This document shows positions 8,489 through 58,172 of a DNA stretch of 64,000 nucleotides, in pieces (positions within the stretch are counted from its first letter, which is position 1; each line of letters begins with the position of its first letter). The stretch lies in contig CAMDED010000017.1 in the NCBI GenBank assembly GCA_945893365.1, positions 1 through 64,000 on the forward strand, in the 5' to 3' direction. The position numbers were made by a program, and so were the translations under genes. Origin of the DNA: Candidatus Sulfopaludibacter sp. SbA3 (GTDB lineage: Bacteria > Acidobacteriota > Terriglobia > Bryobacterales > Bryobacteraceae). The notes under the pieces were generated by a model. It worked only from the letters and a program-made list of their open reading frames with translations. It did no database searches and had not been told where the DNA came from.

Positions 8489-11419
8489 GTGCGCTGCCGA
8501 TGGCTCCCCGTCCTCATTCCGTTACTGCTAACCGCAGGTATTCCGGCGGCGGGAACGGACGGCTACGAAGGCAAGCGCATCGTGTCGATTTCCTTCGAAC
8601 CGGAGCGCCAACCCCCCGATTCGGCGGAGTTGCAGGCGATGCTCCCGCTGCGGACCGGGAACCCGCTGAAGATGCAGGATGTCCGCGCCGCCATCAAGAG
8701 GCTTTATGCGACGGGGCATTATCTGGACATTGAACTGGATGCGCGGCCGGAGGCGGGCGGCGTCGCGCTGCGTTTTCTCACGAAGAACAGTTGGTTTACC
8801 GGCCGCGTGTCCGTTGAGGGCGCGCCGGCGGAACCACCCAACAACGGTCAACTGGTGAACGCCACCGGCCTCGATCTGGGACAGCCCTTCTACGGATACG
8901 ATGTGCGAAACGCGGCCGCGGCCATCCAGCGTACCCTTGAGGCAGATGGATACTACGAAACCACCGTGGTGCCCGAGCTCGAGTACGACCAGGAGACCTA
9001 CCAGGTTCATGTGCACTTCAAGATCGAGAGCGGCAAGCGCGCGCATTTCGAGCAGCCGGCGATTGAGGGCGCGGAGAGCGAAGCTATCGCCGGGAAGATC
9101 GCAAAGTCCACCAAGTGGAAGGGCTGGTTTGGATGGCAGCCATTCACCCGAACGCGCGTACAGCGAGGTATCGACGGAATCGGCAACTATTACAGGAAGC
9201 GTCAGCGCCTGCTGGCCACGGTTGCGGTCGACGACCTTGTCCACGACGCGGAACAGCGCTCGGTGAAGCCCGTACTCACCGTGAATGCCGGCCCGGTCCT
9301 CGATGTACGCGTGGTAGGCGCCAAAATTTCAAGCGGCAAGCTGAAGCGTTACCTTCCGATTTACGAAGAGAGAACCGTGGACCGGGACTTGCTTGTCGAA
9401 GGCCAGCGGAACCTGCGCGACCACTTTCAGGGGGAGGGTTACTTTGAGGTGGAAGTGGAATTCAAGGAGCAGCGCGTGATAGACGGCCATGCCTACCTCG
9501 ACTACATCGTCAATTTGGGCGCGCGGCACCGGCTGGCCTACGTGAGCGTTCAGGGAAACAAATTCTTCGACAAGGAAACCATTCGGGAACGGATGTTGCT
9601 GACGCCGAAGTCGCTAGCGGAACGCCGCGGACGCTACAGCGAGAGTCTGCGCCGCCGCGATGAAGAGAACATCGCCGCGCTCTACCAATCGAACGGCTTT
9701 CCGTCGGCCAGGGTTACGTCTAGAGTGATTGACGACTACCAGGGCCGCCGAGGGGATCTTGGCGTCTTCCTGACGGTGGAGGAAGGCCCGCAGTGGTTCG
9801 TTTCGAAGCTCGAGGTGCAGGGAGTGGGAGCGGAGCAGCGAGAGACGATTGTGGCGCTGCTGGCTTCCGGAGAGGGACAGCCTTTCAGCCCATCGAGCGT
9901 GGCGATCGACCGCGACAACGTCCTCGCGTTCTTCTTCTCCAATGGTTACCCGAACGCGACGTTTGAATGGAGTTCCGAGCCCGACGGGCCGAACCGCGTC
10001 CGCCTGCTCTATGTCGTTTCGGAAGGACTGCGGCAGTTCGTGCGAGGCGTGCTCGTCGGAGGACTCGAGACGACGCAAAAGAAGCTGGTGGATCGCAACC
10101 TTTTGCTCGCGCCGGGCGATCCTCTTTCGCAAATTGGCATGGCGGATACGCAGAAGCGCCTGTACGATTTGGGCGTCTTCGCCAGGGTAAACATGGCGAT
10201 GCAAAATCCCGACGGCGATACGCAGCGAAAATATCTGCTCTATGAAGTCGAGGAAGCGCGCAAGTATTCGCTCGCAACCGGCTTCGGCGCGGAACTGGCG
10301 CGGATCGGCGGCAGCCAGACCAGTTTCGACTCCCCGGCCGGAAAGGCGGGCTTCAGTCCTCGCGTGTCGTTCGACGCGAGCCGGCTGAATCTGCGGGGGC
10401 TGGGCCACACGCTGAGCTTCCGCAGCCGGCTTTCCACATTGCAGCGGCGCGCCCTGCTAACCTACACCGCGCCGCGGATTCGGAACGAGCAAGGGTTGAA
10501 TCTTTCCTTCTCCGGACTCTATGACGATTCGCGCGACGTGCGGACGTTTTCCGCGAAGCGTCAGGAGGCGTCCGTGCAGCTTTCGCAGCGGATTTCGAAA
10601 CCGACTACCGCCTTCTACCGTTTCAGCTACCGGCGAGTGAGCGTCGACGAAAACTCGCTCAAGATCAATCCACTGCTCATCCCATTGCTCGCCCAGCCGG
10701 TGCGTCTGGGAATCCTCTCAGGCAACCTTATCCGCGACAAGCGCGACGATCCGACCGACGCGCACAAGGGCAACTATAGCGCTCTCGACGCTGGAATCGC
10801 CTCGAATATTTTCGGGTCGCAGGCGAACTTCGTGCGCCTTCTGGTGCGAAACAATACGTACCATCCGATAGGCAAGAAACTAGTCCTTGCGCGTTCCACC
10901 ACCGCTGGATGGGTGGCGGCGTACAATTTTTCGAGCGACCTGGCCGCCACCGATGGCGTGCCTCTGCCCGAGCGGTTTTTCACCGGGGGCGGCAGTTCCC
11001 ACCGCGGATTCCCCGAGAACCAGGCTGGCGTCCGCGACACGACAACCGGATTTCCGCTGGGCGGCAACGCCGTGTTCATCAACAACGTGGAATTGCGATT
11101 TCCTTTATGGGGCTCGACGATTGGAGGCGTTCTTTTTGAAGACGCCGGGAATGCGTATGCCCGCCTCCGGGATGTGTCGTTTCGCGTGCGGCAGCGGGAT
11201 ATTAAGGACTTCAACTATATGGTCCACTCGGTCGGGTTCGGAATCCGATACCGGACTCCGGTTGGCCCCGTGCGTCTCGACTTTGCACTCACGCCGAACT
11301 CTCCACGCTTCTTCGGATTCGAGGGGACGCGTGACGATCTGCTATTCGGGCGGGGCCGCGAGACCAACCAGCGGCTCAACCGCTTTCAGTTCCATTTCTC
11401 TATCGGGCAGGCGTTCTGA
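8489..11419 (+). CDS. Outer-membrane assembly factor of the Omp85 superfamily (TamA/BamA-like)
   Basis: A protein of about 976 residues. A signal peptide (RCRWLPVLIPLLLTAGIPAAGT) is followed by a long series of POTRA-like domains over roughly the first 600 residues (for example IVSISFEPERQPPDSAELQAMLPLRTGNPL, LAYVSVQGNKFFDKETIRERMLL and VRGVLVGGLETTQKKLVDRNLLLAPGDPL). The last 390 residues form the membrane barrel with FTGGGSSHRGFPENQAG, the conserved loop-6 RGF motif, and GFGIRYRTPVGPVRLDFAL before a C-terminal aromatic (GQAF). The family inserts beta-barrel proteins into the outer membrane. The GTG at 8489 gives the cleanest signal peptide; a TTG at 8444 overlapping the MFS gene is the alternative. 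A SurA-like gene and tamB follow. Confidence 0.9.
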   Translation: MRCRWLPVLIPLLLTAGIPAAGTDGYEGKRIVSISFEPERQPPDSAELQAMLPLRTGNPLKMQDVRAAIKRLYATGHYLDIELDARPEAGGVALRFLTKNSWFTGRVSVEGAPAEPPNNGQLVNATGLDLGQPFYGYDVRNAAAAIQRTLEADGYYETTVVPELEYDQETYQVHVHFKIESGKRAHFEQPAIEGAESEAIAGKIAKSTKWKGWFGWQPFTRTRVQRGIDGIGNYYRKRQRLLATVAVDDLVHDAEQRSVKPVLTVNAGPVLDVRVVGAKISSGKLKRYLPIYEERTVDRDLLVEGQRNLRDHFQGEGYFEVEVEFKEQRVIDGHAYLDYIVNLGARHRLAYVSVQGNKFFDKETIRERMLLTPKSLAERRGRYSESLRRRDEENIAALYQSNGFPSARVTSRVIDDYQGRRGDLGVFLTVEEGPQWFVSKLEVQGVGAEQRETIVALLASGEGQPFSPSSVAIDRDNVLAFFFSNGYPNATFEWSSEPDGPNRVRLLYVVSEGLRQFVRGVLVGGLETTQKKLVDRNLLLAPGDPLSQIGMADTQKRLYDLGVFARVNMAMQNPDGDTQRKYLLYEVEEARKYSLATGFGAELARIGGSQTSFDSPAGKAGFSPRVSFDASRLNLRGLGHTLSFRSRLSTLQRRALLTYTAPRIRNEQGLNLSFSGLYDDSRDVRTFSAKRQEASVQLSQRISKPTTAFYRFSYRRVSVDENSLKINPLLIPLLAQPVRLGILSGNLIRDKRDDPTDAHKGNYSALDAGIASNIFGSQANFVRLLVRNNTYHPIGKKLVLARSTTAGWVAAYNFSSDLAATDGVPLPERFFTGGGSSHRGFPENQAGVRDTTTGFPLGGNAVFINNVELRFPLWGSTIGGVLFEDAGNAYARLRDVSFRVRQRDIKDFNYMVHSVGFGIRYRTPVGPVRLDFALTPNSPRFFGFEGTRDDLLFGRGRETNQRLNRFQFHFSIGQAF

Positions 11420-46735: not shown

Positions 46736-47938
46736 TTGGCGATAGTGGAAATCGACTACGCGAACGGGATCGTTGCGCGAGCGGGCGATGCCGGCCCTTG
46801 GTTTACCGAGGCCTGCGCCGCGGCCGGGATTCGCATCGTCCCCCGGGATTTCACTCCGCCCTCGACTGCCGGTCTGTGGCCGGGGATTCGCCATCCGCCT
46901 TCCGTGAAAGGCCGCGGCGACGAAGTGACCTCCGCGAGCCGCGAACCCTGGGTCGACGCGAACGGCTATCTGGCCGCCTGGTTGCGCGCTCTTCATCCCG
47001 ATCGTGCGCCCTTGCTCGGCTACCTGCCGGACCGCGCCGCCGGCCTTGAACCGGACCGCGCTGTGCCCTTCGACACGCTGGAACTGGCGCTGATCGAAGC
47101 CTGGGCCGCGGGCGGGAACTACCTTCTGTCGCTCGAGCCGCGATATCAGGCGGCGCTTTCGCGGGGCGAAGAAAAAGCCAAGGAAGCGTGGACGAGTCTG
47201 GTCCGCACCTCGCGCTGGCTGCGCGACAACATCCGGCTGTTTCGCACGGCTCCGTTCGACACCGTGACGGCTCTCGTCGAATCTGGCGAGGAGACGGCCG
47301 AGATCGCGAATTTGTTGTACCGCCGGAATGCTTCCCCTGCGCTCGCCCGCGCGGACAGACCTCCAGCGCCTTCCGCGGCAAGGCGCGCGCTGGTGGCCGC
47401 GAACATCAGGCCGCCATCGCCCGAGGCCAGGGCCCGAATGCTAGCCAACGCCGAATCCGGATCGACCCTGGTGGTGGCGCCACCAGCGGGGACGGGCGCG
47501 AGCGCCAACTGGTGGTCCGGCTCCTCTAACGCCGCGCGCTTGAAGCTCGTCCGCAGCGAGGCGGATCGGGATTTCTATTCGCTCGGCCGCGGCCAGGTGG
47601 TCGCCTACCAGCGTCCGGTCAATGACCCGAGCGAGTTCGCCCTCGACGTGATCGATATCGTGGCGCACCGGAATCGCGCCGTACGCCTGTGGAACGCACC
47701 GGCCGTGGTCGCCCTTGCCGCCAAGGGAGCGGCGCCCGGCCAGGCGATCATGCACCTGGTCAATTACGGTTCGCCTGTCGATAGTGAGATACAGGCTCGC
47801 ATTCAGGGCAGCTACCGGAAAGGGCAGTTGATCCGGCCAGAGGGCGCCCCAATTGAATTGAAACCCGCGGGCCGTGGGACCACGACGGAAGTGATGGTTC
47901 CCGAGCTGCGGCGTCTGGGAGTAGTCGTTTTCGGATAA
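46736..47938 (+). CDS. Hypothetical protein, possibly glycoside-hydrolase-related
   Basis: A 400-residue protein without a signal peptide. The middle resembles the end of a TIM barrel (FDTLELALIEAWAAGGNYLLSLEPRYQAALSRGEEKAKEAWTSLVRTSRWLRDNIRLF). It is followed by an Ala/Pro-rich linker, a Rossmann-like part, and a C-terminal beta domain (AIMHLVNYGSPVDSEIQARIQGSYRKGQLIRPEGAPIEL) like those that end some glycoside hydrolases. No catalytic residues can be named. It begins at TTG 46736 with GGAG upstream; GTG 46745 is possible. It is divergent from the Gfo/Idh gene and directly followed by the DUF362-like gene. Confidence 0.7.
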   Translation: MAIVEIDYANGIVARAGDAGPWFTEACAAAGIRIVPRDFTPPSTAGLWPGIRHPPSVKGRGDEVTSASREPWVDANGYLAAWLRALHPDRAPLLGYLPDRAAGLEPDRAVPFDTLELALIEAWAAGGNYLLSLEPRYQAALSRGEEKAKEAWTSLVRTSRWLRDNIRLFRTAPFDTVTALVESGEETAEIANLLYRRNASPALARADRPPAPSAARRALVAANIRPPSPEARARMLANAESGSTLVVAPPAGTGASANWWSGSSNAARLKLVRSEADRDFYSLGRGQVVAYQRPVNDPSEFALDVIDIVAHRNRAVRLWNAPAVVALAAKGAAPGQAIMHLVNYGSPVDSEIQARIQGSYRKGQLIRPEGAPIELKPAGRGTTTEVMVPELRRLGVVVFG

Positions 47939-49526: not shown

Positions 49527-50798
49527 CTAGCCGATTTGCTTCCGCAGTTGTTGCGCCGCAATCAGGACCGGGTCCCACACAGTGGCGAAGGGCGGCGCGT
49601 AGGCGAGGTCGAGCTGTTCGAAGTCTTCGAGCCGCATGCGGCTGTGAAGCGCCGTTGCGATGACGTTGATCCTGGCGTGAACACCGTCCTCTCCGGTTAC
49701 GGTTCCGCCCAGCAAACGGCATGTCGCGCGATCGGCGATCAACTCCACGCCGACCTCGCGGCCACCCAGGTAGCGCGGCCTGCTCAGAGCGCCGATTCGC
49801 GCCGAGGCCGGTTGAAATCCGTCGCGGCGCGCCTCGGCGGCGGAAAGACCGCAGATTCCGATTCCGAGTCCGCAGACGCTCACGATCGAGGTTCCCACGA
49901 TGCCGGGAAACCGCTCCCTGCCCCCGGCCGCATTCGCGCCGGCGACGCGGCCCATCTTATTCGCGGTTGTGCCGAGCGGAATCCACGCGGGGCGGCCCGA
50001 AACCAGGTGGAGGGTCTCGGCGCAATCGCCCGCGGCGTAGATCCCGTTGATGTTCGTCTGCATGCGCTCGTCGACGCGGATGGCGCCGGTGCGGCCGAGC
50101 TCGATACCGGCGTCCGAAGCCAATTCCACGTTCGGCTTGAGTCCCGCGGCGGAAATCGCCAGGTCGAAACCGGGGGCTGCGCCGGATGCCGCTTCGGGCG
50201 CGCGAACTCCGAGAATGAGCTCCACGCCGAACCGCTCCAAATGCGCGCGGACCAACGCGGCGAGGTCAGGGTCCTCGCGGTGCAGTACGTACTCGGATTG
50301 CTGCATCAGCGTGACGCGGATTCCGTGGCGGCGCAACGTGTCGGCGAGTTCGAGCCCAATGTATCCGGCGCCTATCACGAGGGCGCGCTTCGGCTTCCGT
50401 TCGAGGATCAGGCGCTTGAGCCGTTCACCATCCTCAAGCGTGTGGAGCGTGATGCCGGGCGATGCCGGGCGCGCGCCGGTGGCGATGACCAGGCGGTCGT
50501 AGCGGAGGCGCTCACCGCCTTCAACCAGGACCTCGCGGCGTCCATGCGCGATGGTAACGGCGCGGGCGTTCGTGCGCACTTCGATGTTTCGTTCCTTGCG
50601 AAAATATTCGGGAGTGTAGACCGTCAGTTGCTCCGCGTTTTGCACGCGGCCGTCAACCAGGAACGGCAGGCCGCAGGCTCCATAGGAGATGTCGGCTCCC
50701 TTTTCGAGGACGGTAATTTCGAGCGAAGGGTCGATACGCCGCGCGCGCGTGGCCGCGCTCAGGCCCGCCGCCACGCCGCCGATCACAACCAGCCGCAC
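49527..50798 (-). CDS. FAD-dependent pyridine nucleotide-disulfide oxidoreductase (CoA-disulfide reductase/NADH oxidase type)
   Basis: A 423-residue flavoprotein. The N-terminal FAD site is VVIGGVAAGLSAATRARR and the single redox cysteine is Cys42 in DISYGACGLPF, as in CoA-disulfide reductase and NADH oxidase. YDRLVIATGARP and the NAD(P) site RALVIGAGYIGLELADTLRRHG follow, then GIYAAGDCAE and the dimerisation domain. It reduces a disulfide, persulfide or oxygen with NAD(P)H. No rhodanese domain is fused. The GTG start is eight bases after the STAS gene; it is the last gene of the six-gene minus-strand run. Confidence 0.9.
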   Translation of the reverse strand: MRLVVIGGVAAGLSAATRARRIDPSLEITVLEKGADISYGACGLPFLVDGRVQNAEQLTVYTPEYFRKERNIEVRTNARAVTIAHGRREVLVEGGERLRYDRLVIATGARPASPGITLHTLEDGERLKRLILERKPKRALVIGAGYIGLELADTLRRHGIRVTLMQQSEYVLHREDPDLAALVRAHLERFGVELILGVRAPEAASGAAPGFDLAISAAGLKPNVELASDAGIELGRTGAIRVDERMQTNINGIYAAGDCAETLHLVSGRPAWIPLGTTANKMGRVAGANAAGGRERFPGIVGTSIVSVCGLGIGICGLSAAEARRDGFQPASARIGALSRPRYLGGREVGVELIADRATCRLLGGTVTGEDGVHARINVIATALHSRMRLEDFEQLDLAYAPPFATVWDPVLIAAQQLRKQIG

Positions 50799-50806
50799 GG
50801 GGCTCT

Positions 50807-51211
50807 TTACGCCTTCTTGCTGCTCTGCACAAAGCTGAGGATGTCGAAGCGCTTGATTTCGCGGTCCGGGAAGAAGCTGTTGACGGCGTGCTGCTCGTCG
50901 TCGAAGATCTCAAAGATCGTGGCGAGCTTGGTCATCACCAACAATTCGATGGTGCGTTTGTTGAGGTTGAGCAGCTTGGCCACGCCGTCGGCCCTCTTCA
51001 AAGTGGTGGCCGCCATGACCAGAGCGCCGAGGCCGGTCGAATCGATGTAATCGACCCCGGCAAGATTGAGAATGACGTTCAACTTACTACTCGCCGTCAA
51101 TTCCTGAATCTTCTCTCGCATCACCGTAGCCTCGGGGCCGACCGTGATTCTACCGCTGAGGCTCAGAATCGTGATGCCTTCTTTTTCGCTCTGCTGAATG
51201 TCGAGACTCAT
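50807..51211 (-). CDS. STAS-domain anti-anti-sigma factor
   Basis: A 134-residue SpoIIAA/RsbV-like protein: GITILSLSGRITVGPEATVMREKIQELTASSKLNVILNLAGVDYIDSTGLGALVMAATTLKRADGVAKLLNLNKRTIELLVMTKLATIFEIFDDEQHAVNSFF. Ser58 in YIDSTGLG corresponds to the serine phosphorylated in SpoIIAA. About 25 extra residues follow the domain. Unphosphorylated STAS proteins bind an HPK-type anti-sigma kinase and free the sigma factor; no such kinase or sigma factor is encoded next to it. The large Hanks-type kinase three genes upstream is a possible modifier. Confidence 0.92.
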   Translation of the reverse strand: MSLDIQQSEKEGITILSLSGRITVGPEATVMREKIQELTASSKLNVILNLAGVDYIDSTGLGALVMAATTLKRADGVAKLLNLNKRTIELLVMTKLATIFEIFDDEQHAVNSFFPDREIKRFDILSFVQSSKKA

Positions 51212-51236
51212 AGTAGTAGGTGGGACCCGGAGGTCA

Positions 51237-51584
51237 CTAGACCGGCATCTTGAAGCCGATCATTTCTTCGACCCGCTCAGTCGCCACCATGTCGATCGCG
51301 TCCCAGGGGCAACCATCGAGAAACGCGCCATCGGGGCCTTTGGTCGTGCATTTTTTGCATCCGATGCACAGCACGGGGTCGACCTCGATATGCCCGAATG
51401 GGGGATGATCCTCGTCCGGAACCCAGTACATGCAGTCGGCTACCGGACAATACTCCACGCAAGCCGGAGATCCGGCGCAGCCCGTGCAGCACTCGGTGAT
51501 GACGGCGATCTCTTTCGGACGCTTCTTCCGCGGAGTCGCAATCCCTTCGGATTTCGGCTCCATCTTTTCGACCAGCGTGGGCAT
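51237..51584 (-). CDS. Two-cluster ferredoxin (4Fe-4S)
   Basis: A 115-residue iron-sulfur protein. The cysteine-rich segments are ECCTGCAGSPACVEYCPVADCMYW and LCIGCKKCTTKGPDGAFLDGCPWDAID; at least eight Cys in CxxC-type spacing support two clusters with short insertions in each motif. The first 40 residues are hydrophilic. I chose the ATG at 51584, since residues upstream are unlike the family. It lies between the ceramidase-like and STAS genes, 19 and 25 bases away, and could pass electrons to the flavoprotein at the end of the run. Confidence 0.88.
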   Translation of the reverse strand: MPTLVEKMEPKSEGIATPRKKRPKEIAVITECCTGCAGSPACVEYCPVADCMYWVPDEDHPPFGHIEVDPVLCIGCKKCTTKGPDGAFLDGCPWDAIDMVATERVEEMIGFKMPV

Positions 51585-51603
51585 AGAACGAAGTATGCCA
51601 CAC

Positions 51604-53046
51604 TCATTGGCCGCGGAACAATACGCCAAGCCTGCGCAGAGCCGCGGCTGTCATTTTCGGCGCCGCCTGTTTCTCCAGATAACTGGATTTCGCGCGCCAG
51701 GTTTCGTAGCCGCCGACTTCGTGGCCCTCCACGGTGGGAATATAGCCGCGATAGTCGTTTGCAAGCTCGACCGGAAAAGTCGCGCGGAACGGGCTCTTCG
51801 CTTTCACTTCGATTCCCAGTTCGACGAACGCCTCGCCGGGCAAAGTCGCAATGCCGAGATCGCCGATCCGCAGGGCCTGGATCGGGGTCTTTGCGGTCTT
51901 CGGATACTGCTCGTGAAGTAGAACCGTTTCGCGCGCGTAGATCGGAGAGCGGTCTTTCTGCACTGGCGCGGCGCCCGTCTGGCCAAGCCGTTCGCGCGCG
52001 GCGGCGGCCTCTTCCGCCGTGGGCAGCCGCACGCCAAACTCCAGTTCTTCGATCGACCCGCCAAGCTCCACCGAGTTCTGGAATTCGATGGTGCGCCAGG
52101 TCCTGTAGCATTCCGCGGCGAGAATGTCCGCGTACAAAGTCATCTGGGCATAGGGCGGGTAGGGCGCGCGCTTCTTCAGGAAATCGACGCCGTTGATATT
52201 CCCGGAACAAGCATTGGTAAGAATCGGGACGAAGGGTGGAAATCGCGTGGATGCGGCGAGACCGCTCAGCCGGGCCATGGCGACGGCCCACGCTCCGAAG
52301 TAGTCGGCGGTAAGATGTCCGCCGCCACCGCCGCCGACGTAGTGCAGCGCGTAGTTGCCGACGACGGCGATGGGTCGTCCATCGGCGGCCTCGACCGCGA
52401 GCACGCCGACGTCGGGATCGGTGGGACCGGCTGCTTTCACGATATTGGGACTGGCGACGGGCGGGTTCATCTGCACGCGATCGGTCGAGGCTCCGAACGG
52501 GTCCGGAGGAATCGTGCCGGGTTTCATGAAAAAGCGGCGGTTGAAGACGAGGCGGGGCTCGCGGCCAACGCCCCAGCCGATGCGGGCGGGCTCCAATCGC
52601 TCCATGGCGATTCGCACCGCATCCGCGATCCGCACCGTAAGCCAGTCCGTGTATTTCGGGTCGGGCACGCTCTGGAACAGGTGACCCGACGGCGGAGCGC
52701 TGTGCGTGTGCGTGGCGGAGATGAGAAGGTGAGAAGGCGGAAGCTGCAAGCTCGCCGCGACGATGTCCTTCGACCGGTCGATGACGGTGCGCGGAACGGC
52801 GCAGGAATCCACGGTGGCAATGGCGATCCGCGAGCGGCCGTTATCGAGCGCCAGACAGCGGACAAGCAATTCATCGTGAACGTCGGTCGCGATGCGGTCC
52901 GTCATGCCTCCGGCCATGGATGAGCCGAGATTTGGGGTAATGTTGACAGTCGCGGCGCCGGCGCGGAGAGTGCCTCCCGCAACCTGTGCGGCGGCGCCCC
53001 ACGAAAACGCGGGTGAAACGAGAAACGCTCTTCTGTTCATGTTCAT
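51604..53046 (-). CDS. Exported neutral/alkaline ceramidase-like protein
   Basis: A 480-residue protein. The N-terminus MNMNRRAFLVSPAFSWGAAAQVAGG is a TAT-like export signal. The ceramidase N-terminal domain shows LRAGAATVNITPNLGSSMAGG, VHDELLVRCLALDNGRSRIAIATVDSCAVPR and the zinc-site motif LLISATHTHSAPPSGH, then GVLAVEAADGRPIAVVGNYALHYVGGGGGGHLTADYFG. These are the usual features of the family that hydrolyses ceramide amide bonds, although many bacterial members lack a tested substrate. The C-terminal Ig-like domain of true ceramidases seems short. Its start is five bases after the kinase stop, so the two are coupled. Confidence 0.86.
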   Translation of the reverse strand: MNMNRRAFLVSPAFSWGAAAQVAGGTLRAGAATVNITPNLGSSMAGGMTDRIATDVHDELLVRCLALDNGRSRIAIATVDSCAVPRTVIDRSKDIVAASLQLPPSHLLISATHTHSAPPSGHLFQSVPDPKYTDWLTVRIADAVRIAMERLEPARIGWGVGREPRLVFNRRFFMKPGTIPPDPFGASTDRVQMNPPVASPNIVKAAGPTDPDVGVLAVEAADGRPIAVVGNYALHYVGGGGGGHLTADYFGAWAVAMARLSGLAASTRFPPFVPILTNACSGNINGVDFLKKRAPYPPYAQMTLYADILAAECYRTWRTIEFQNSVELGGSIEELEFGVRLPTAEEAAAARERLGQTGAAPVQKDRSPIYARETVLLHEQYPKTAKTPIQALRIGDLGIATLPGEAFVELGIEVKAKSPFRATFPVELANDYRGYIPTVEGHEVGGYETWRAKSSYLEKQAAPKMTAAALRRLGVLFRGQ

Positions 53047-53051
53047 GTTTA

Positions 53052-56000
53052 TTATGCTCCCGCCGCGTGGGATTTGGACAATGCCGGGCCGGATTTCGAG
53101 GTTTCCGCGGGCCACTCTCCCGGGGCGATCATTTGCGTCATCCGGGCGGGATTCCGGATGCCTTGGGCGGCCATCACGGCGTCCATCGCCGCTACCTCGC
53201 CGGCACCCTCTTCGCCCCCGCGAACAAGTCCGCGCGCCCGCCGCGCCGCTGCCGCGTGGAGGGCCATGCCAGTGGCCGCAAATGCGTGCGCCGCCGCGTC
53301 GAGACGCATCTCCGCCTCGTTCATCCGGCCGCGCGACGCCGCGATCCCGGCGTGAAGGAGCCAGGCAAGACCGTCCGTCCATTGCATCCTTTCGCGCTCG
53401 ACCTGTTTGGCCGCCCGCGCGGCTTCTTTTAGATCTCCCATGGCGACGGCGCATCGTCCCTTGGCATGCACCCACTCCGCCCGAATCACTTGCACGCGTA
53501 ACATCATGGAACGCTCGACAATAGGCTCGCTCTCGCGCAGCAATTTCCAGGCGGATGCCGGGTCGCCCCGGTAGAGAGAGACCTCGCCCTGCGCGAAAGA
53601 ATTCCAATAGTGCTGGATATGGAAGCCCCTATGCGACCACCGCTCCATGGCCAGCCTTAGTTCCTCCGACGCGCGCGCGGGGTCGTCCGCCGCCAGCCAG
53701 AGCACGTGTGAAATACGATTGAGCACGCCGGTCTCGGTATAGAGATCGCCGCGATCGCGCACGTCCTTCAGAACAACCGGATAGCGGGAGGCGACCTCCT
53801 TCAGATTTCCCTCAAAGCACCATGTGATCAGAGATAACAGACGCCCCGTGGTGGATTCCCAGGTAGTGGGAACGTCCGGGCCAGCGCGCAGCGCTTCGGC
53901 CTTGTCCAGGTATTCGCGCGCCGCCTGCCAGCGGCCCTGCGAAAAGCAGACCATGCCGGTCATGAAACCGATGTGAGCGTGCACGTACGGATTCCGGACG
54001 CGGGCGGCCACTGCGTGCGCGGCCGCGAGCAGCTCCTCACAACGCTGGATGGCCGGCCGGCCGGCGGTTCCAACATGGCCCGCCTCCATGGCGAGAGCTC
54101 GGGCCACTCGATACGGTTCGCCGGCTTTGAGGGCTAAGAGCAGGTGTCGCGACTGAAAATCGGCGGCGTAAATATTGTCGACCACGGCCAAGCCCGCTCC
54201 CACGCTCCAGCAGGCGTCGATGCGGACCAAATCCGCCGGCACGACCCGGCTGAAGTCGCGCTCCTTGAAACGGATGCCGCGGAGCCTCACCAGCGCGCGC
54301 CGCAACAGCAGCGAGGCCAGAGCGCCCCGCGGCGTATTCGCCATCCTGAGACCCACCGATTCAAGCACGCCGCGCATCGCTTCCATGCCCTCGTCGATGT
54401 GCCCGCTCAACAGGAGTTGCTCCGAGGCTCTGCGGCGCAGATCCAGGGCTTCCGCGGCGGACGCTCCCTTGGCCGCTTCGAGATACGCGCGGGCGGCCTG
54501 GTCGCCGCGGCCGGCGTTTGCGAGCGCGTCGCCCAGCTTGACGTGCAGGGCGCGCGAATGTTCCGGATCGCCGGGGTCGAGATCGAGCGCAAGCCTGTAG
54601 AGGCGCGCGGCCCGGTCGAAGGCGAGCGCGTCGGTTGCCTTCCGGGCGGCGGCCGCGGCGTACACCGCGGCCTTGGTTCTGTCGCCTCCGCGCTCGTAGT
54701 GGACCGCCATGGTTTCCGAATCGGTCTCGCGGCCGCTCGATTCATAACCGTGCGCCAGCCGCAGATGGTGCGCCGACGCTTTGGCCGGCTCCAGATGGGC
54801 GAGGACGGTTTCGCGAATGCGGTCGTGGTAGGTTTCAATTTCGTTGCGGTCGCCCGCGTCGCGCCCGCGCAGCATGCGCTCGGTCCGGAGCAGATGGAGC
54901 AGCGAAAGATCCTCGCTTTCGAAGTCCGCGGCGCGCCGCGCCAGATCGTCGGCGACAGGCTGTCCGGCGACGGCGACGACTTCGAGCAGCTTGCGGGCTC
55001 GTTCGGGCAACTCGGATACGCGCTGGTAGATCACATCGTCGAGCGTGAGGTGTTGTTCGCCGGTTCGCGCTCTGGGGCTTCGCAGCAATTCGATGAAAAA
55101 CGGACTGCCGCGCGCTTCCGCAACGATCGACGCCGCGCGCTCGGAGAAGCCGCCACCCGTGAGCGCCCCGGCAAGCGAACGCGCTTCCTCTTCCGTCAGC
55201 TCGCCCACTTCGATGGCGCGGACGGACTGGGCGCAAAGCACGGGTTCGAGCTCGCGCAGCAACGGGCTTGCCGGCGCTTCCTCGCTGCGATAGGACGCGA
55301 TCAGCAAGCAGGCGGGCGAGCCGGGCTCGCGCAGAATCTCCTTGAGGGGCCCGGCGCTGTCAAGGTCGCCCCATTGGAGATCGTCGATGAACAGGACGAG
55401 GGGTCTTGATCCGCCGAGCTTGCCCAGCAGCTCCCTAAGCGATGAAAACGCACGCCGCCGAAGCTCCTGCGAATCGAATATTTCGGGACTGCGGTTACGC
55501 GCTTCGATCACCGCTTCCACGCGACGCAAAACCGGAAAGAGGCGCGCCAGCGAGGCTACGTCCCGGGGCATCAGCCGTTCCGCATCGCGGTGTGGAAGCT
55601 TTTGCAGGTACTGGCTGAGAGTGTCCACCAGGCTGTCGAGCGCCTTGTACGGCACCGACTCGCGCTCATAGCAGCGGCCCGAGAGAATCACGATGCCGGG
55701 TTCAGCCAGATGCAGCTCGTCGAGAAAGTGACGGATGAGAGCGCTCTTCCCCATGCCCGACCGCCCGTAAACCCGTGCCGCCACGGTGCGCCCCTCACGG
55801 GTGGCGGCGAGGGCGTCGCGAAGCGCGGCCAGGTGGCGCTCGCGTCCGACGAAAACGGCGCTTCTTCCGGCTGCGGCATGGGAAACGAAACCGGGAACGG
55901 GCTCGGAGCCGGCTTGCAACCGCTTCAGTACGTCGCGCCCGGAAGGCCGCTGGCCGGGGTCGAAACGGAGTAGCTCAAGGCATAGGCTGTTCAGGTCGGA

Positions 56001-56819
56001 CGGCAGGGCGGCGGCCCAATGGGAGGGGGGCGCGAGGTTCTCATAATGCGCGCGGCTCGGGGTCCGGCGATTCAGGTTGCGGAAAGGAAGGCGTCCAGTC
56101 AAGGCTTGGTAAAGCATCACTCCGGCTCCGAACCAGTCGCTCGCCTGTCCGGCGGCTTGCCCGGAGGCTTGCTCCGGAGACATGTAGGCGGGGGTTCCCG
56201 CGACTCCCGCCTCTTCGGCGCTGCCGCCGGGGGCGAGTTCGGTAACCAGACCGAAATCGAGTACGACGACTCGCCCTTCCGGCGTCACCAGGACATTCGA
56301 CGGCTTGATGTCGCGGTGCAGGATGCCGGCCCCGTGAATGGCGAGGAGCCCTTCGGCCAATTGCGAAAAAGCCGCACGGAGGCGTCCGGCCGCGCCGACG
56401 GTCAGATGGAACGGCGCAGCGTCAAGCGTAACGTTCTCATGTTCTCGCGTCGCGGGCATCTCCGTCGTGTCGAGGGTAAGCGTGGATTCCGCCTTGGCGT
56501 TCTGTTGGGATTCACCGCCGCGAACGTAATCGAGGAAATCCACCCCGTGGATCAGCTCCATCGTGAAGAACCATTCCTCTTTGGTAGCCTGCAATTCGTA
56601 AAGAGTTACGAGGTTCGGATGGGTGATGTCGGCGAGCGCGCGGAATTCCTGTTTGAAGCGGTAGATGCGGGACGGATCGCGTTTGCGCAGGGACTTCAAG
56701 GCGACGACGGATTTCATCTTGCGGTCGTAGGCCCGGTAAACCACGCCGAAGGCACCGGAGCCGAGGCGGTCCTCAATTTCAAACCGCTCCGTGCCGTGGA
56801 ATGTGTCGACTGCGTCCAT
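53052..56819 (-). CDS. Giant Ser/Thr protein kinase with AAA-type ATPase and TPR-like repeats
   Basis: A 1255-residue protein. The Hanks-type kinase domain spans about residues 13-305: glycine loop LGSGAFGVVY (19-28), Lys42, HRDIKPSN with Asp170, DFG at 188-190 and SPE at 214-216. Residues 101-138 are a Gln/Thr/Glu-rich insertion. An ATPase of the AAA/NACHT-like type follows, with P-loop GRSGMGKS (352-359) and Walker B LVLFIDDLQW. The C-terminal half (about 700-1230) is helical and TPR-like. There is no transmembrane helix. Such kinases sense or scaffold in Acidobacteria and Myxobacteria. It starts 39 bases after the APC permease and is followed by the ceramidase-like gene. Confidence 0.92.
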   Translation of the reverse strand: MDAVDTFHGTERFEIEDRLGSGAFGVVYRAYDRKMKSVVALKSLRKRDPSRIYRFKQEFRALADITHPNLVTLYELQATKEEWFFTMELIHGVDFLDYVRGGESQQNAKAESTLTLDTTEMPATREHENVTLDAAPFHLTVGAAGRLRAAFSQLAEGLLAIHGAGILHRDIKPSNVLVTPEGRVVVLDFGLVTELAPGGSAEEAGVAGTPAYMSPEQASGQAAGQASDWFGAGVMLYQALTGRLPFRNLNRRTPSRAHYENLAPPSHWAAALPSDLNSLCLELLRFDPGQRPSGRDVLKRLQAGSEPVPGFVSHAAAGRSAVFVGRERHLAALRDALAATREGRTVAARVYGRSGMGKSALIRHFLDELHLAEPGIVILSGRCYERESVPYKALDSLVDTLSQYLQKLPHRDAERLMPRDVASLARLFPVLRRVEAVIEARNRSPEIFDSQELRRRAFSSLRELLGKLGGSRPLVLFIDDLQWGDLDSAGPLKEILREPGSPACLLIASYRSEEAPASPLLRELEPVLCAQSVRAIEVGELTEEEARSLAGALTGGGFSERAASIVAEARGSPFFIELLRSPRARTGEQHLTLDDVIYQRVSELPERARKLLEVVAVAGQPVADDLARRAADFESEDLSLLHLLRTERMLRGRDAGDRNEIETYHDRIRETVLAHLEPAKASAHHLRLAHGYESSGRETDSETMAVHYERGGDRTKAAVYAAAAARKATDALAFDRAARLYRLALDLDPGDPEHSRALHVKLGDALANAGRGDQAARAYLEAAKGASAAEALDLRRRASEQLLLSGHIDEGMEAMRGVLESVGLRMANTPRGALASLLLRRALVRLRGIRFKERDFSRVVPADLVRIDACWSVGAGLAVVDNIYAADFQSRHLLLALKAGEPYRVARALAMEAGHVGTAGRPAIQRCEELLAAAHAVAARVRNPYVHAHIGFMTGMVCFSQGRWQAAREYLDKAEALRAGPDVPTTWESTTGRLLSLITWCFEGNLKEVASRYPVVLKDVRDRGDLYTETGVLNRISHVLWLAADDPARASEELRLAMERWSHRGFHIQHYWNSFAQGEVSLYRGDPASAWKLLRESEPIVERSMMLRVQVIRAEWVHAKGRCAVAMGDLKEAARAAKQVERERMQWTDGLAWLLHAGIAASRGRMNEAEMRLDAAAHAFAATGMALHAAAARRARGLVRGGEEGAGEVAAMDAVMAAQGIRNPARMTQMIAPGEWPAETSKSGPALSKSHAAGA

Positions 56820-56858
56820 GTCCGCTTTCCGGAGGCGATACCGCGCCCCGTTCCGATG

Positions 56859-58172
56859 TTACCGCGCGCGCCGCCAGAACAGGTATGCGGGCACGCCGCT
56901 CGCGACGCACAGCAGGCCGAGGAGAGACGGCACGGGCTTGGTGGCGAGCGTGTTGGCGACGAAGAGCATCGACGTCGCGACGAATAAGACCGGCGTGATG
57001 GGATATCCCCACATCTTGTATGGCCTCGGGAAATCGGGATGCCTGCGCCGCAGCACGATCACACCGGCCACCGCCAGACCGTAGAAGATCCAGGAGGAGA
57101 AGATCACGTAGGAGAACAGCTTCTCGTAAGAGCCGCTCACCGCCAGAAGCGACGACCAGACTCCCTGAACCAGGACCGCGAACGCGGGCGTCTCGTACTT
57201 CGGGTGCACTTCGGCGATCTTCCTGAAGAACAGACCGTCGCGCGCCATCGCGAAGTAAACTCGCGGGCCGCCTAAAATGCCGCCGTTGAGCGCGCCGAAT
57301 ATGGAGACGAGAATGACCAGCGACACGATCGACGCCCCAGCCTCTCCCATGGTGCGGTTCGCCATCAAGGCCGCCACGCGCTCGGCCCCGGCAATCTCCG
57401 CGACGGACAGAATGTGAAGGTAGGCCAGATTGGCGCTCAGGTAAATCACGATGATTCCGCCGACGCCGAGCGATAGCGCGAGCGGAAGATTGCGTTCGGG
57501 CCGCTTGATTTCGCCCGCCACCATACCGCCCATGAACCAGCCCTGGTAGGCCCAGAGGCAGGCTATCGTGGCGACGCCGAAGTGGCTCCATGAAAACTCC
57601 GCCGGAGCGGTCCAGTGAAGAGCGGATGGCAGCGGGCTCAAGAGAGCGCTCCCGATCAGCAATGCGATGCCAAGTACTTTCGCGATCGTCATGACGTTCT
57701 GGACCGCGGCTCCCAGCCGCACGCCGCGGCAGTTTACAAGCGTGAGAATCAGGATCACGCCCACGGCCGCAATCTTCGCGCCCGTCGGCGTGAGCGGAAT
57801 GAAATGGCCAAGGTAAATGGCGAAACCGACGGCAAGCGTCGCCGTGCCGCCCGAGCGAATCACCAGTAGAAACGCCCAGCCGAAAAGGAAGGCCGTCAGC
57901 TTTCCCCAGCTTTCGCGGAGATAGACATACTGTCCGCCGCTCGCCGGATACATCGCGCCGAGTTCGGCGAAGGCGAGCGCGCCGAAATACGTGAGCACGC
58001 CGGCGAAGATCCAAACGGCCGCGATCAGAACCGGGTTTGGCAAAGTCCTCGCCACGTCGCTCGGCACGAGGAAGATGGCCGAACCCATTACCGTTCCGCC
58101 GACGATCATGGTGGCGTCGAACAGGCCGAGTTTACGCGGAAGATCGCGAGAGGCAGGTGTCACGGATGCCAA
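56859..58172 (-). CDS. APC-family amino acid permease
   Basis: A 437-residue membrane protein with about twelve hydrophobic segments. Family motifs are LGLFDATMIVGGTVMGSAIFLVPSDVA in TM1, GALAFAELGAMYPASGGQYVYLRESWGKL, and GALNGGILGGPRVYFAMARDGLF in TM8. The sequence suits LAT/APC-type amino acid exchange. The start is TTG at 58172; GTG 58163 is an alternative. It is the first gene of the minus-strand run ending at 49527, though the 39-base gap to the kinase leaves room for a separate promoter. Confidence 0.88.
   Translation of the reverse strand: MASVTPASRDLPRKLGLFDATMIVGGTVMGSAIFLVPSDVARTLPNPVLIAAVWIFAGVLTYFGALAFAELGAMYPASGGQYVYLRESWGKLTAFLFGWAFLLVIRSGGTATLAVGFAIYLGHFIPLTPTGAKIAAVGVILILTLVNCRGVRLGAAVQNVMTIAKVLGIALLIGSALLSPLPSALHWTAPAEFSWSHFGVATIACLWAYQGWFMGGMVAGEIKRPERNLPLALSLGVGGIIVIYLSANLAYLHILSVAEIAGAERVAALMANRTMGEAGASIVSLVILVSIFGALNGGILGGPRVYFAMARDGLFFRKIAEVHPKYETPAFAVLVQGVWSSLLAVSGSYEKLFSYVIFSSWIFYGLAVAGVIVLRRRHPDFPRPYKMWGYPITPVLFVATSMLFVANTLATKPVPSLLGLLCVASGVPAYLFWRRAR

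Follow-up and report, generated by a model that had tools for sequence, protein, structure and literature searches.

An apparent six-gene run in Candidatus Sulfopaludibacter and a likely redox unit with a SpoIIAA-like switch within it

Genes and features of the locus

The window, a 64,000-nt stretch of a contig from Candidatus Sulfopaludibacter sp. SbA3 (Bryobacteraceae), carries six consecutive ORFs on the minus strand. From the permease end, their order is APC, KIN, CER, FDX, STAS and FLAVO. The six ORF ends of the original prediction were confirmed, and the recomputed gaps are 39, 5, 19, 25 and 8 nt. Its family assignments were also borne out by Pfam and TIGR profiles and, for CER, by predicted fold. 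ARAGORN also called a 93-nt tRNA-Ala at 47183-47275, within a long ORF, which is probably spurious.

APC (56859..58172), which is missing from the title of the original prediction, encodes an APC-family amino-acid permease (PF13520, E 2e-59). Its upstream segment GTAGTATGATTG is conserved in three species. The gene may start at GTG 58163 instead of TTG 58172; three species share a TATGAT shortly before this GTG. KIN (53052..56819) encodes a 1255-aa protein in which the profile search detected a Hanks-type kinase domain (PF00069, E 2e-45), an AAA_16 ATPase domain (PF13191) and a weak TPR-like match. CER (51604..53046) has a Tat-like N-terminus and a predicted neutral-ceramidase fold. Its score against PF04734 (26.3 bits) is below the Pfam gathering score of 32.1, and a PDB sequence search gave no relative of note. 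The AlphaFold model of CER resembles neutral ceramidases in fold (2zws, E 1e-23, TMq 0.66), with 2zws and 4wgk as the best predicted fold matches by far. The remaining three genes encode a ferredoxin (FDX, 51237..51584), a SpoIIAA-like protein (STAS, 50807..51211) and a flavoprotein (FLAVO, 49527..50798). A promoter-like element, also on the minus strand, precedes FDX (51592..51621).

Gene order in the genus and the family

Comparison with relatives indicates that the run very probably comprises three adjacent units, APC-KIN, CER and FDX-STAS-FLAVO. The six-gene run as such is coincidental packing, and the same-strand packing itself is real. Two other genomes of the genus, G001 and G002, both drafts, were compared by DNA search. 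In both, APC and KIN are adjacent (L219, L221) with a gap of 39-41 nt, whereas FDX-STAS-FLAVO is located on a separate contig. Homology with the window stops near the KIN stop codon (window 53104); after KIN, G001 has a large gene encoding cytochrome-like CxxCH motifs and G002 an ABC transporter. CER was absent beside both KIN and FDX in these two genomes. The family sample consisted of 61 Bryobacteraceae-like genomes, one per genus, with KIN orthologues in 3 and CER-like orthologues in 18; outside the window, neither gene was found among those adjacent to STAS. The KIN-APC pairing is confined to the genus. CER is a separate unit, which adjoins neither FDX nor KIN in any relative examined and has orthologues that stand alone elsewhere. 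Among the three units, only FDX-STAS-FLAVO is, by these comparisons, old and conserved.

The original prediction envisaged one six-gene operon in which KIN phosphorylates STAS, with CER, FDX and FLAVO as output. The shared strand, the gaps of 5-39 nt, and a kinase domain and a STAS Ser58 that both appear functional are in its favor. However, this reading fails because the six-gene order is absent from both same-genus genomes; KIN orthologues occur in 3/61 family genomes compared with approximately 58 for STAS, and FDX is preceded by a promoter-like element of its own. We consider a single operon highly improbable. The proposed phosphorylation found no support, with KIN orthologues never located near STAS, and KIN is a poor candidate kinase for Ser58. 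The proposed link to lipid breakdown was likewise unsupported; CER is a newcomer at the locus. What is retained of the predicted order is FDX-STAS-FLAVO and, very widely, STAS-FLAVO. Tight same-strand packing can mislead, as illustrated by six operon-like genes that split into three units.

The promoter-like element before FDX was found by cross-species comparison; a sigma-70 consensus scan yielded nothing above chance. Located within TGTGGCATACT, it consists of TTGTTC (51621-51616), an 18-nt spacer and a -10 CATACT (51597-51592), which ends 7 nt before the FDX ATG at 51584. The element is conserved in G001 and G002 despite a different upstream gene, and the homology between the window and G002 starts at 51621, the first base of the −35-like TTGTTC box. 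A [T/C]ATA[A/C]T-short spacer-ATG pattern was observed at 16/16 FDX loci of the STAS-linked clade and at 65/114 FDX loci overall, compared with a mean of 0.6 in shuffles. Such a signal before STAS was detected in 0/10 ferredoxin-bearing genomes. Leaderless genes are common in Acidobacteria (9.7-19.4% in three species, mean 13.3%) and carry a TA-signal approximately 12 bp upstream of the start (PMC3160421). The FDX box pattern fits this known leaderless transcription, and transcription of FDX-STAS-FLAVO probably starts at a near-leaderless promoter of its own ahead of FDX. Weaker promoter-like elements precede APC (TATGAT before GTG 58163) and CER (CATAATAAACATG); both are similar to that of FDX and less tested. 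Across Acidobacteriota (L031-L150), the FDX start is preceded within a few bases by a conserved TATAAT-like box, which would suit a test of leaderless translation well.

Proteins of the conserved unit

FLAVO, with a GTG start, encodes a 423-aa pyridine nucleotide-disulfide oxidoreductase of the CoA-disulfide-reductase (CoADR)/Npsr class (PF07992, PF02852). It contains the FAD, NAD and dimerisation domains, a single-Cys SxxxCGxP active site, and CoADR-type GGVAAG and YxPP...DP motifs. The single redox cysteine of the original prediction is Cys42, the sole SxxxCGxP cysteine; Cys42, Tyr400 and Asp409 are each present in 39/39 orthologues. The best TIGR model is that of CoADR (TIGR03385; 356.5 bits, below the cut-off of 578.8), and the closest PDB matches are 6ruz and 3kd9. 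FLAVO shares the domain order, the single Cys near FAD, the YxPP...DP motif and the replacement of the peroxidase His10 by Ala with CoADR from Pyrococcus (3kd9) and Npsr from Archaeoglobus (PMC7969121). Conversely, it scores under the curated CoADR cut-off, lacks the C-terminal rhodanese domain of Npsr (no PF00581 match) and, unlike both enzymes, is encoded with STAS, a redoxin and NuoI. Residue 166 (50301-50303) is Gln, whereas Glu, which is usual for NADH binding, is found in 29/39 relatives; with Gln166, the window FLAVO may differ from its relatives in cofactor preference.

Alternatively, FLAVO could be an O2-reducing NADH oxidase or a peroxide-reducing enzyme, which would turn the unit, together with the redoxin and OsmC-like neighbours, into a module against oxidative stress. 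The family of FLAVO includes NADH oxidases, the redoxin is of the AhpC/TSA type, and an OsmC-like gene is located upstream of FDX in one genome (G055). However, 38/39 relatives carry Ala where NADH peroxidase has its catalytic His10, and the best-scoring models are those of CoADR. We regard an oxidase or peroxidase function as unlikely and favor a CoADR-type enzyme.

STAS (134 aa) belongs to the SpoIIAA-like anti-sigma-antagonist family, scoring 66.6 bits against TIGR00377 (cut-off 53.45) and also exceeding the cut-off of PF01740. The predicted SpoIIAA-type serine was corroborated by alignment with Ser58 of SpoIIAA (1th8). The Asp57-Ser58 pair is invariant, with Ser58 present in 64/64 STAS proteins, and one full-length orthologue is present in approximately 58/61 family genomes. 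The same domain, with a DS(T)G serine at the equal position, is found in the SpoIIAA/RsbV anti-sigma-factor antagonists (1th8, 6m36, 1sbo). Unlike these proteins, the window STAS has redox genes as neighbours, and neither an anti-sigma kinase gene nor a sigma gene lies close by. It also carries an additional conserved C-terminal tail, NSFFPDREIKRFDILSFVQ, limited to this family in the searches made; matches beyond the family, most of which stop near residue 114-125, resemble general paralogues. No conserved RsbW-type kinase gene was found among the clustered neighbours of STAS. In the window genome, an RsbW-type kinase gene is located elsewhere (C238, L277:1043-1923), beside its own 114-aa STAS gene. 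In many genera, a two-component pair precedes STAS. In three genera (L205, L206, L179), the family STAS gene is directly followed by an NtrC-type regulator gene.

FDX (115 aa) matches PF12838 marginally (27.6 bits, cut-off 27). Nine cysteines are invariant in the alignment, arranged as CxxCx5Cx3CP and CxxCxxCx12CP plus a ninth. The two motifs ending in CP resemble those of 2[4Fe-4S] ferredoxins; however, the x5 and x12 insertions depart from the standard CxxCxxCxxxCP spacing repeated twice, and the ninth invariant Cys is a further difference. The AlphaFold model (pLDDT 52.6) is unusable for fold comparison, and a sequence search found no FDX relatives in the PDB. The family is Acidobacteriota-wide, with relatives in 64/101 genomes, approximately 40 of them close. 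In much of the phylum, the gene facing FDX encodes a HEAT-repeat protein and lies next to cytochrome oxidase genes, and in a sister family a stand-alone rhodanese gene directly follows FDX (L051, L052, L061-L066, L068). Some but not all members of the window's family have FDX in front of STAS. In the tree of STAS, a short protein, FDX-linked members do not all fall in one clade, and the tree could not establish that the FDX-STAS link arose only once.

A family-wide string and its proposed role

Gene order across the family reveals an ancestral-looking string, [RR-HK]-STAS-FLAVO-redoxin-NuoI-[CysE], in which RR is a response regulator and HK a histidine kinase. By this comparison, FDX-STAS-FLAVO is a rearranged piece of the string. 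Among the 61 family genomes, STAS is located directly upstream of FLAVO in 34/37 FLAVO-bearing genomes with a gap of 5-57 nt, and every FLAVO-bearing genome also has STAS; the probability calculated for this adjacency is a crude estimate, which shows merely that it is not due to chance. A CPxC redoxin is directly upstream of NuoI in 38/44 genomes, and in 28/55, STAS is found at most 3.3 kb upstream of NuoI. Complete strings were observed as RR-HK-STAS-FLAVO-redoxin-NuoI (L161) and FDX-STAS-FLAVO-redoxin-NuoI-CysE (L033), and pieces have been lost or moved in other genera. In the window genome, the redoxin gene and the nuoI behind it are on another contig (C271, L231:3443-4481) and do not adjoin STAS-FLAVO.

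On contig C3 of this genome, the nuo operon contains nuoA to nuoH followed by nuoJ to nuoN; NuoH terminates at L268:11077, and NuoJ begins at 11095. These genes were named by eye from their translations, and NuoH by PF00146. The orphan NuoI family exceeds the TIGR01971 cut-off and is 72-100% identical among family genomes. Because no nuoI stands between nuoH and nuoJ in the operon (L268:9890-11595), the orphan is probably the missing complex I subunit, relocated. Several genomes with one NuoH have the orphan as the sole NuoI found. Compared with the complex I NuoI of TIGR01971, it is distinguished by being encoded in the STAS-FLAVO-redoxin string and not in the nuo operon. The split of nuoI from the nuo operon recurs across the family. 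Nothing relevant was found in the open-licence literature on STAS with CoADR, on an Acidobacteria anti-sigma antagonist with ferredoxin or on orphan nuoI. Every protein of the string is from a known family, the STAS-CoADR-class-redoxin-NuoI arrangement was not found in the literature searched, and the string is apparently undescribed.

Overall, the explanation we favor, with some reserve, is that of three units, one of which is a conserved redox unit with a SpoIIAA-like switch. This unit is most likely an NADH-linked thiol/persulfide redox module, although the thiol/persulfide function itself is proposed tentatively, and an RsbW-type phosphoswitch at STAS slightly more so. With NAD(P)H and Cys42, FLAVO would reduce a disulfide or persulfide, either of low molecular weight or on a protein; its substrate could be of the CoA type or the CPxC redoxin, which is the likely partner. 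FDX would be an alternative, added electron carrier tied to the same thiol/persulfide pool. An unlinked RsbW-type kinase would phosphorylate Ser58, and the STAS switch would couple redox and NADH status to gene control. A redox branch of ferredoxin and flavoprotein with possible persulfide chemistry, as originally suggested, is plausible; what backs it is gene linkage, namely the CoADR/Npsr-class enzyme, the CPxC redoxin, CysE and, in the sister family, the rhodanese after FDX.

Several observations weigh against parts of this proposal. The RsbW-like kinase has an adjacent STAS of its own, and a different partner is possible for the window STAS. FLAVO falls short of the CoADR equivalog cut-off, lacks a rhodanese domain and carries Gln166. 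The redoxin and NuoI are not next to STAS-FLAVO in the window genome, the FDX-STAS link is confined to part of the family, and shared expression, instead of one pathway, may account for the conserved order. Indeed, the string could be an expression neighbourhood of housekeeping redox genes, with STAS acting on an unrelated sigma network and not on the redox enzymes. The genes are often separated or lost singly, STAS occurs without the other string genes in 10 sampled loci, and NuoI is a core respiratory subunit, all of which suit such a neighbourhood. However, the STAS-FLAVO adjacency across genera is far beyond chance and no FLAVO-bearing genome lacks STAS. We give the neighbourhood about one chance in three in qualitative terms, as a serious but lesser alternative to the redox unit with a switch.

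Partner-switching STAS proteins are known mostly from sigma-factor and stressosome circuits. The location of STAS beside a CoADR-class reductase in most genera of the family, in a string with a displaced nuoI, suggests a metabolic or redox output for the switch. It is rather doubtful that the STAS phosphoswitch exerts direct control, whether by binding or via a sigma factor, over the NADH-dependent flavoprotein/redoxin pair and the NuoI supply in Bryobacteraceae. If this were true, one serine phosphorylation would set both respiration and thiol/persulfide redox, and some members would have a lineage-specific ferredoxin as well. The string constitutes a small gene set that is testable in a cultivated Bryobacteraceae strain.
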